In this document: piece after piece, positions 3,991 to 6,713 of the stretch
How the letters are laid out: each line of letters starts with the position of its first letter
Position numbering within the stretch: position 1 is the stretch's first letter
Assembly (NCBI GenBank): GCA_030690895.1
Contig: JAUYFQ010000013.1
Span: forward strand, 1-64,000
Length of the DNA: 64,000 bases
From: Sulfuricellaceae bacterium
GTDB taxonomy: Bacteria > Pseudomonadota > Gammaproteobacteria > Burkholderiales > Sulfuricellaceae
Reading direction: 5' to 3'
Translations under genes and position numbers: made by a program
Notes under the pieces: model-generated
Seen by the model: the letters and a program-made list of their open reading frames with translations, nothing else
Told to the model about the DNA's origin: nothing
Databases searched by the model: none

Positions 3991-4440
3991 TTAGAGGATC
4001 GCGTGAGGCAGGTCAGTGATGCGGTACTTTCCGCTTTGCACGGAAAGCGCGAGTTTTTCTAGCGTTTGCTCCTTCAGCAAGGAAACCACTTTTTCCTTGA
4101 TAGGTTTCCAGCGGGTATGCATTGGACATGCAGTCTCATCACTGCACACCTTCAAGCCAAGCACACAATCATCGGTAAAACCTGCGCCTTCGGTCAGCAA
4201 CAGCACTTGCATGATGTCGGTCTTTTCCGCGCCATCCCGCAAACAGAAGCCGCCAAGGCGGCCACGAAAGGAATTCAGCAGATTGCCCTTGCACAAATTT
4301 TGCATGATCTTGGCCAGATAAGCCGTTGGAACGCCCAAATGCTCAGCGACCTCACGATTAAGAATAGGTTCGCCGCGAGGACGCGTCGCGATGTAAATCA
4401 AGGCTTGAATGGCATACTGGCTGGTGCGTGACAGGATCAT
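3991..4440 (-). CDS. Rrf2-family transcriptional regulator with three-cysteine cluster motif
   Basis: 149-residue winged-helix regulator. The ATG at 4440 gives MILSRTSQYAIQALIYIAT, the usual Rrf2 beginning; the open frame extends further upstream but without family similarity. The helix-turn-helix covers about residues 27-47 and the GGFCLRD wing follows at 63-69. Cys92, Cys99 and Cys105 form a C-X6-C-X5-C arrangement, close to the C-X5-C-X5-C that holds the Fe-S cluster in IscR, so it probably binds a cluster and senses iron, O2, NO or redox state. It lies upstream of ccoNOQP on the same strand and is divergent from the tandem DsrC gene. The specific subfamily (NsrR, IscR, RsrR or other) cannot be settled here. 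Confidence 0.88.
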   Translation of the reverse strand: MILSRTSQYAIQALIYIATRPRGEPILNREVAEHLGVPTAYLAKIMQNLCKGNLLNSFRGRLGGFCLRDGAEKTDIMQVLLLTEGAGFTDDCVLGLKVCSDETACPMHTRWKPIKEKVVSLLKEQTLEKLALSVQSGKYRITDLPHAIL

Positions 4441-4506
4441 GACCGGCATTATTGAAGTAAATGGAAATTTTGTAAAGGATGAAACGATCCTGAATTCGAT
4501 AATTGC

Positions 4507-4550
4507 GCCATATGGGATGTGCGGCAAAATGTCGGCCATCCCAATATGGC
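4507..4550. promoter_or_regulatory. Inverted repeat in the divergent rrf2 / dsrC-like intergenic region
   Basis: GCCATATGGGATG (4507-4519) and CATCCCAATATGGC (4537-4550) form a 13-bp stem with a single bulged base and a 17-base loop. It lies 67 bases upstream of the rrf2 start and 98 bases upstream of the dsrC-like start, where an operator or leader structure would act on either gene. No U-run follows, so it is not an obvious terminator. Confidence 0.45.
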
Positions 4551-4647
4551 TGGCCAAACTCGTAAACAGCGACTAATTTCATGCGATGATTGCACAGAAT
4601 TTTGTTACGCTTCACCTACTCAATACCGATATCAAGGAGATCAAGAA

Positions 4648-5379
4648 ATGGGCAGCTATGAACTGACCTCGGACGGCCGTCTGAAAAATCTGGAAGACTG
4701 GAGCGAAGATGCTGCGCGCTGGCTTGCGCAGCAGGACGGGCTCACCCTGACCGATGAACATTGGGAGATCATTCGCCTGATCCGTATCCACTACCAGACG
4801 TATAACATCCCCCCTGTACGCAAATTGCTCAAAAAAGAAATCAGCAAGCAGCTTGGTGCAGACAAGGCAGAAGATGCACGGCTGGACAGCCTTTTCCCAA
4901 AAGGGCTGCTGGTCCAGGGAAGTCGCCTGGCTGGCGTTCCGATTCCCATGCTGGACGCCGAGATTGAAGCCATTCATTCGACCCCGGTCAAACAGGCAAC
5001 GCCCCAGGCCAACGCTGCTCCACTGGCCACGTTCAAGGCTGAGCCCATCCAGTTTCAGGGAAAAATGATCGCGGTTCACGAAAAAGGCAATCTGGTCGAT
5101 CTTAGCGAATGGAGCGAGGATCTTGCGCGTGCCATGGCGCAAAAAGAGGGTGTCACGCTGACACCGGAACACTGGGAAGTGATTAACTACATGCGCAAGT
5201 TCTATTTCAAATATGGCATTACACCGATGGTACGTCTGCTGATGAAAAACATGTGTGATGATCTGTCGGAAACCAAGGCGAGCAGCGAATATCTGTATAA
5301 ACTGTTCCCCGGCGGCCCCTCACGCCAAGGCTCAAGAATTGCCGGGCTGCCAGCGCCACAGGGCTGTATTGACGAGTAA
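4648..5379 (+). CDS. Tandem (two-domain) DsrC/TusE-family sulfur-carrier-like protein
   Basis: 243 residues, about twice the length of DsrC/TusE. The start at 4648 has AAGGAG 7 bases upstream. Two copies of the family fold are visible: residues 10-105, with LEDWSEDAARWLAQQDG and LTDEHWEIIRLIR, and residues 140-243, with LSEWSEDLARAMAQKEG and LTPEHWEVINYMRK. Both end in the family's RQGSR/VQGSR-(I/L)AG-(L/V)P arm. Only the second domain keeps the C-terminal sulfur-carrying cysteine (Cys240 in PAPQGC). The first reads PIPMLDAE there and has no cysteine. The second DsrC cysteine, about ten residues upstream, is also absent, so the active half resembles TusE more than DsrC. No dsr, tusBCD or hdr genes lie nearby. 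The linker (106-139) is Ala/Pro/Gln-rich. The partner protein is unknown. Confidence 0.88.
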   Translation: MGSYELTSDGRLKNLEDWSEDAARWLAQQDGLTLTDEHWEIIRLIRIHYQTYNIPPVRKLLKKEISKQLGADKAEDARLDSLFPKGLLVQGSRLAGVPIPMLDAEIEAIHSTPVKQATPQANAAPLATFKAEPIQFQGKMIAVHEKGNLVDLSEWSEDLARAMAQKEGVTLTPEHWEVINYMRKFYFKYGITPMVRLLMKNMCDDLSETKASSEYLYKLFPGGPSRQGSRIAGLPAPQGCIDE

Positions 5380-5438: not shown

Positions 5439-6713
5439 TTACTGTGGCATCGTGTTTTCCAGCTCGATCGCAGCCGCCAGCAAGGCCAGTCTGGCCACCA
5501 CGCCATAGGAATAGAAGCGGTTAGGCGGGGTGTCCGGCCCGGCAGCTCGGTCTGGCAGGGAACATGAGGTATCGAAGGCCAGCGGAACAAAATGCATGCC
5601 GGGTGCATTGAGGTTTTCGTCCTGGCCACGTCCGGTGTGAACGCGGTAAAAACCACCCACCACGTAGTGATCCATCATGTATACCACCGGTTCGGCCACC
5701 GCTTCATTGATGCTCTCGAAGGTGTAAACGCCTTCCTGAATGATGACTTCGCTGACCTGCTGACCTTCCTTGATGACTGACATCTTGTTGCGCTGCTTGC
5801 GATTGAGACCCTTGACCTGGGCAGCATCCTTGACCGTCATGATCCCCATGCCATAGGTGCCCGCGTCAGCCTTGATGATCACGAATGGATCATTCTTCAC
5901 GCCATATTCACGGTATTTTTCGCGAATATCTTCAAGCAAGCCCTCAACTTTTACCGCCAGACACTCCTCGCCGCCGCCTTCCTTGAAATTGATCTCGCGA
6001 CAGTCGTCGAAGTAGGGGGTGATCAGCCACGGATCCATATCGATGATTTTGGAGAATTCCTTGGCCACCTGATCATAAGCGCTGAAGTGATGGGTCTTGC
6101 GACGGGCGTGCCAACCGGCATGTAAAGGCGGGATGACCGGCTGTTTCAGACCCATGAGAATTTCCGGGATGCCCGCAGAAAGGTCATTGTTGAGCACGAT
6201 GGCGCACGGGTCGAAGCCATCCAGCTTGAGCATGTCCCCTTCGCGCCGGATCGGCTCCAGAGTCAGGTGCTGACCATCCGGCAAGTCCAGCCGGGTGGGC
6301 TCGGTAATCTCCGGCAGCAAGCTGCCAATACGCACGTGCAGTCCGGCATGGCGAAGAATGGCCGCAAGCCGCGCCACATTCTGCAGATAGAAGAGGTTAC
6401 GGGTGTGATTTTCAGGAATCAGCAAGAAGCGCAGCGCGTCGGGACAGATTTTTTCCACTGCCGACATGGCTGCCTGCACGCACAATGGAGTGAACTCAGG
6501 ATTCAGGTTATTGAAGCCGCCGGGGAACAGGTTGGTATCCACCGGCGCCAGCTTGAATCCGGCATTGCGCAAGTCCACCGAAGCGTAAAACGGCGTGTCG
6601 TGTTCCTGCCACTGGGAACGGAACCATTGTTCGATACGCGGCATGGCATCGAGAATGTGCTGCTCCAGGGAAAGCAGCGGCCCGGTGAGTGCGGTAGTGA
6701 GATGTGGAACCAT
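5439..6713 (-). CDS. gshA: Glutamate-cysteine ligase, PF08886 type (GshA)
   Basis: 424-residue enzyme for the first, ATP-dependent step of glutathione synthesis: gamma-glutamylcysteine from glutamate and cysteine. It matches the proteobacterial GshA family found in Neisseria and Nitrosomonas rather than the E. coli enzyme. Characteristic segments are NTNLFPGGFNNLNPEF-like text near residue 60, a glycine-rich nucleotide-binding stretch IKADAGTYGMGIMTVKDA around 300, and the C-terminal FYRVHTGRGQDENLN. It stands alone, converging on the tandem DsrC gene. Its promoter would lie next to or within the large palindrome at 6732-6999. Confidence 0.85.
   Translation of the reverse strand: MVPHLTTALTGPLLSLEQHILDAMPRIEQWFRSQWQEHDTPFYASVDLRNAGFKLAPVDTNLFPGGFNNLNPEFTPLCVQAAMSAVEKICPDALRFLLIPENHTRNLFYLQNVARLAAILRHAGLHVRIGSLLPEITEPTRLDLPDGQHLTLEPIRREGDMLKLDGFDPCAIVLNNDLSAGIPEILMGLKQPVIPPLHAGWHARRKTHHFSAYDQVAKEFSKIIDMDPWLITPYFDDCREINFKEGGGEECLAVKVEGLLEDIREKYREYGVKNDPFVIIKADAGTYGMGIMTVKDAAQVKGLNRKQRNKMSVIKEGQQVSEVIIQEGVYTFESINEAVAEPVVYMMDHYVVGGFYRVHTGRGQDENLNAPGMHFVPLAFDTSCSLPDRAAGPDTPPNRFYSYGVVARLALLAAAIELENTMPQ

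Follow-up and report, generated by a model that had tools for sequence, protein, structure and literature searches.

A scattered family of two-domain DsrC-like proteins with a single arm cysteine in sulfur-oxidising Gammaproteobacteria

Sulfur oxidation and sulfate reduction both depend on DsrC as their central sulfur carrier. The usual DsrC/TusE protein is a single domain of about 105-115 residues, a length that is customary architecture and lies outside the profile definition of the DsrC/TusE/DsvC superfamily. In the 64,000-nucleotide stretch of DNA analysed here (the window), one gene encodes a protein of 243 residues that a first-pass annotation described as two fused DsrC/TusE domains, only the second of which carries the active cysteine. 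Is this arrangement real and conserved and, if so, what does a carrier gain from a copy of itself that has no cysteine?

Domains, fold and cysteines of the tandem protein

The gene, its parts and its neighbours are as follows (coordinates are those of the window).

3991..4440, minus strand: divergent Rrf2-family regulator (TIGR00738, 94 bits, over its cut-off)
4441..4647, no strand: intergenic region between the regulator and the tandem gene, the common upstream region of both
4635..4639, plus strand: probable ribosome-binding site AGGAG, 8 bases 5' of the ATG, read from the sequence
4648..5379, plus strand: two-domain DsrC-family gene, 243 aa, ATG at 4648 to TAA at 5379; orthologues are known
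4660..4965, plus strand: N-terminal DsrC domain without cysteine, residues 5-106 (PF04358 and AlphaFold2 model)
4813..4854, plus strand: basic helix of the N-half, residues 56-69, PxxKLLKK (charge comparison)
4954..4956, plus strand: Asp103 codon, the N-half position equivalent to the active cysteine
4966..5046, plus strand: variable linker, of low model confidence and of varying length across the family
5047..5376, plus strand: C-terminal DsrC domain with one arm cysteine, residues 134-243 (PF04358 and fold match)
5332..5334, plus strand: Ser229 codon, at the site of the second arm cysteine (CysB) of DsrC proper
5365..5367, plus strand: Cys240 codon TGT, kept in 39/39 aligned rows
5439..6713, minus strand: convergent glutamate-cysteine ligase, gshA (TIGR02049, 643 bits)

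When the halves were scanned separately, PF04358 (cut-off 24.9 bits) matched residues 4-100 with 98.9 bits and residues 136-241 with 134.3 bits. Further, TIGR03342 was above its cut-off for each half alone. A weak PC4 match was below its cut-off and was set aside. AlphaFold2 was run on the whole chain with an input alignment limited to the window and related-locus sequences. The model had a mean pLDDT of 83; the linker (residues 103-128) was predicted to be disordered (pLDDT <50) and the arm tip (residues 240-243) was of low confidence, so that contact between the halves is unreliable in this model. The C-half matched DsrC of A. vinosum (PDB 1yx3) with Z 17.6 over 112 residues. Because the C-half took up the whole-chain list of fold matches, the N-half was modelled alone (pLDDT 86.9), and it matched the DsrC-family structure 7syb with Z 16.3 over 102 residues and an rmsd of 1.6. 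The strong fold matches, eight for each half, were all DsrC-family proteins. Thus, by profile and predicted fold, the tandem protein belongs to the DsrC/TusE/DsvC superfamily in both halves. The first-pass reading of two DsrC domains in tandem stands, and its own reservation, that the first half might not be a DsrC fold, falls away.

The C-half ends with ...SRQGSRIAGLPAPQGCIDE, which contains Cys240; this residue was retained in every one of the 39 rows of the alignment used for residue conservation, in which one gene is represented twice, as L008 and L065. The N-half ends with ...VQGSRLAGVPIPMLDAE, and residues 1-133 contain no Cys. Asp103 aligns with Cys240, and Ser92 aligns with the second arm cysteine of DsrC. 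Across the family, the N-half site equivalent to Cys240 was Asp in 35 of the 39 rows and Cys in none. The active cysteine is therefore confined to the C-terminal copy, as had been proposed. The CysB site of the C-half was Ser in 35 rows, Ala in 3 and Cys in 1. A second C-half cysteine, Cys203, is present but not conserved. Cys240 is followed here by I-D-E and throughout the alignment by at least two more residues, usually Ile-Asp; because of this tail it is not penultimate, unlike the cysteine of DsrC and TusE.

Distribution, origin and maintenance of both halves

Full-length relatives, about 44-60% identical, were found in at least 33 genomes, each counted once, within the class Gammaproteobacteria in the sense of GTDB. 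Since the full-length form is present in many independent genomes, we rejected a chance fusion or an assembly fault. One scan of genome contigs gave two full-length relatives (L007 and L008). In whole-genome searches, confined to Pseudomonadota, the tandem turned up in 2 of the 22 genomes from the window's family, in 4 of 399 from its order and in 16 of 369 from its class, as well as in 6 of 20 genomes from the order of G714 and 10 of 54 from that of G543, and in a phylum sample of 398 genomes the only one was the window's own; these samples overlap and are non-random, so the counts are not frequencies. Two tandem genes were present in each of G506 (side by side), G1168, G1169, G1170 and G1187. 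The second tandem copies L187, L188 and L189 are 41-44% identical to the query and carry, within the AGLPCP of the N-half arm, a cysteine shifted by four residues towards the N-terminus. The tandem form was absent from the viral contigs, phages and plasmids searched; a phage or plasmid origin was rejected, as the matches there were single-domain TusE places of ~320 bases. We concluded that the tandem protein is no one-off and represents a conserved family scattered among sulfur-oxidising bacteria.

The tandem gene lies on contig C171, and a dsr cluster with its own dsrC lies on C126 of the same genome. C126 carries dsrA, a further dsrA-like gene at the position of dsrB, DsrE-family genes and dsrC, together with dsrM-, dsrK- and dsrL-like genes identified by eye. 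Further, a TusE-like single-domain gene whose product ends GGLPKPTGCV is on C98, and the genome contains other DsrC-like genes. Judged by pathway content and genome size, together with PMC6397845, the host is probably a sulfur-oxidising betaproteobacterium close to Sulfuricella and Sulfuriferula. The earlier remark that no dsr or tus genes are nearby thus holds for the flanks of the gene only, and the lack of a sulfur pathway that it implied is wrong at the level of the genome. In the class sample, dsrA was over its cut-off in 14 of 16 tandem carriers versus 98 of 353 non-carriers (odds ratio 18, Fisher p ~2e-6, uncorrected for relatedness; the carriers span 14 genera). Of the dsrA-negative carriers, G592 has a completeness of 81%, and dsrA is present in its congener G452; in G585 the tandem gene is on a 3.9-kb contig, so it may be stray sequence. 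The tandem gene tracks dissimilatory sulfite reductase, and most dsrA genomes do without it.

A maximum-likelihood tree was built from 114 DsrC domains of the searched genomes. In it, the N-halves formed one clade (support 100), the C-halves formed another (99) and the two clades were sisters (97). This topology is explained by one duplication-fusion, which was likely a single old event before the spread of the family. The stem branch was 0.63 for the N-half versus 0.25 for the C-half, so long-branch effects are possible, and the nearest single-domain relative of the tandem halves was weakly placed (support 66). One single-domain protein, L123 (G506:C112:12643-12942), is possibly a relative of the tandem ancestor; its tail, QGCRIAGLPMPNDCIDHS, combines two cysteines in the arm with a CID ending that resembles the tandem C-half.

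Mean pairwise identity across the family was 52% for the N-half and 61% for the C-half, and the linker (positions 108-133) was 16-28 residues long. In five close pairs, dN was 0.03-0.13 in both halves and dS ranged from 0.19 to >3, near saturation in some pairs, with one N-half comparison giving no estimate. Where dS could be estimated, dN was well below it in both halves; the ratios are rough, and the halves look alike. Judged by this pattern, both halves are evidently under purifying selection, and the N-half is thus not decaying. The selection result largely refutes the idea that the first half is a functionless remnant of a chance duplication: its longer stem branch fits such an origin, but it has been kept in at least 33 genomes, at the identity given above, and we consider a vestige hardly credible.

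Carrier, docking domain or regulator

We tentatively regard the tandem protein as a sulfur carrier from the DsrC/TusE superfamily that has one cysteine and that fusion to an inert second copy has made bivalent, and give this reading a little less than an even chance. According to PMC3397948, A. vinosum DsrC binds sulfur or sulfite only through its penultimate cysteine and receives it from DsrEFH, the equivalent of CysB is dispensable for sulfur binding, and the second arm cysteine occurs in organisms with DsrAB. This cysteine pattern allows the C-half to carry sulfur but not to act as a trisulfide-forming DsrC. Cys240 on the C-terminal arm would take up or hand over sulfane sulfur (or sulfite), as Cys111 does in A. 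vinosum DsrC. Since CysB is missing, the tandem protein should not form the DsrC trisulfide used by DsrAB, and it would thus be an accessory carrier or buffer alongside true DsrC and not a replacement for it.

One arm cysteine and Ser at the CysB site are also features of TusE-type proteins (PMC3397948), and the tandem might instead pass sulfur to MnmA for tRNA 2-thiouridine. We consider this improbable: the single-domain TusE-like gene on C98 is already there, the 185.2 bits summed over both halves are under the cut-off of 191 for the TusE equivalog NF008562, and a sparse presence that follows dsrA is unlike tRNA thiolation.

The N-half would be unable to load sulfur and, with its arm tied into the linker, may serve to dock the protein on a surface that binds DsrC. 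The partner could be a symmetric complex that offers two sites for DsrC, for which DsrEFH and DsrAB are candidates; docking of the N-half there would keep the C-half arm close to its donor or acceptor. Docking on such a surface is the simplest use for an inert N-half maintained by selection. A fuller version is a more speculative proposal that we hold to be rather unlikely: the inert domain would anchor the protein to one of the sites in a symmetric sulfur-transfer complex and the cysteine domain would work the other, giving a directed hand-over beside ordinary DsrC. The retained fold of the N-half, with Asp in place of Cys, would also suit a decoy that throttles the pathway by filling the DsrC sites of DsrAB or DsrEFH; however, a pure inhibitor would not need the invariant cysteine of the C-half, and we rate this a shade below the improbable TusE role.

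Several points weigh against the carrier reading, among them the absence of the gene from most dsrA genomes and the unreliable modelled contact between the halves. The acidic Ile-Asp tail behind Cys240 might hinder entry to DsrC-type active sites, and the association with dsrA could reflect lineage habits of DsrC-rich genomes. Further, no conserved neighbour or operon links the tandem gene to any partner: across 20 neighbourhoods no gene was kept next to it, none of these yielded a partner by operon, and the Rrf2, cbb3 oxidase and gshA neighbours were peculiar to the window's genome. The Rrf2-family regulator has a three-cysteine cluster; the cbb3 oxidase genes lie on one side of it and the tandem gene on the other, and it may control either. 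In the intergenic region (4441..4647), no promoter-like site on the plus strand and no Rfam match was found. At L090:9904-11252, 3' of one tandem orthologue and on the same strand, are genes for a short helical protein and for a metallo-beta-lactamase protein of the ODP family.

Cysteine-free DsrC-like domains also occur outside the tandem family. A gene ending GKGGY on C126 (L066:9149-9481, minus strand, G000) is divergent to dsrA, and a GKGGY-tailed gene was seen in many genomes ~5 kb from dsrC in the opposite orientation (L009-L040, near position 1000). In a Rhodoferax MAG (L032:4828-6606), a single frame of 592 aa fuses a DsrN-like amidotransferase of the CobB/CbiA type to a DsrC-like domain that has no cysteine and carries a KGEH tail. 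On contig C24 of G452 (L190:986-2758, minus strand), a 590-aa protein has PAS domains followed by a C-terminal DsrC-like domain without arm cysteines, which suggests that some DsrC-like domains signal.

Regulation through the basic helix of the N-half is a serious possibility and the main rival to docking. Within one chain, the two domains would pair as a pseudo-dimer and bind nucleic acid or a signalling protein; the N-half would make contact through this helix, and Cys240 would report persulfide by its state. P56, K59 and L60 of helix 56-69 are invariant across the family, and its mean net charge is +3.7 versus +0.9 for the equivalent C-half helix; however, the average overall net charge is negative for both halves, and DsrC proper also has lysines in the equivalent region. 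The same genomes hold cysteine-free DsrC-like domains, one fused to PAS and one divergent to dsrA, but no conserved target gene adjoins the tandem gene. The halves have weak fold similarity to winged-helix regulators (Z <6), but such values are common among unrelated helical folds, and we treated the weak Fur, LexA and sigma matches (Z <6) as uninformative. Thus, a regulator or sensor seems to us possible yet on balance unlikely. The first-pass suggestion of a docking or regulatory pseudo-carrier gains from the DsrC fold of the N-half, the family-wide loss of its cysteine and purifying selection, whereas its two alternatives, docking and regulation, are not separated by these data.

Comparison with known DsrC-family proteins

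It had been allowed beforehand that the tandem form might prove widespread and already characterised; it is fairly widespread within one class, and no description of a tandem or fused DsrC was found in the open literature searched, a scope that mostly leaves out subscription papers, so that an earlier account is possible. The two-domain form was likewise not mentioned in the passages of DsrC papers searched. The parts are known, and a fixed pair of a live and a dead DsrC domain in one chain was not found described, although such absence is weak evidence of novelty.

The tandem protein resembles A. vinosum DsrC (1yx3) in the fold of both halves, the C-terminal arm AGLPxPxGC and the carrier cysteine. 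It differs in having two domains, Ser229 in place of CysB and an Ile-Asp tail, and in lying outside the dsr operon; DsrC proper has paired CysA and CysB, with CysA penultimate and the gene in the dsr cluster, whereas the tandem has CysA only. With TusE it shares the superfamily and a single arm cysteine, here in the C-half, but it has two domains, no adjacent tus genes and a separate TusE-like gene in the genome.

The N-half, without an arm cysteine, is like the cysteine-free DsrC-like paralogues (e.g. the GKGGY-tailed ones), called RspA in the literature and classed as regulatory. The lack of an arm cysteine is true of the N-half only, since Cys240 is in the C-half of every member. Further, the N-half differs from these paralogues in its tail AGxPxPMLDAE, in forming a separate clade and in being joined to a cysteine-bearing half. 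DsrC-like paralogues are numerous in sulfur oxidisers; A. vinosum has four beyond dsrC (PMC3368242). A live and a dead carrier domain in one chain provide a built-in comparison within the family, which makes the role of cysteine-free DsrC-like domains directly testable.
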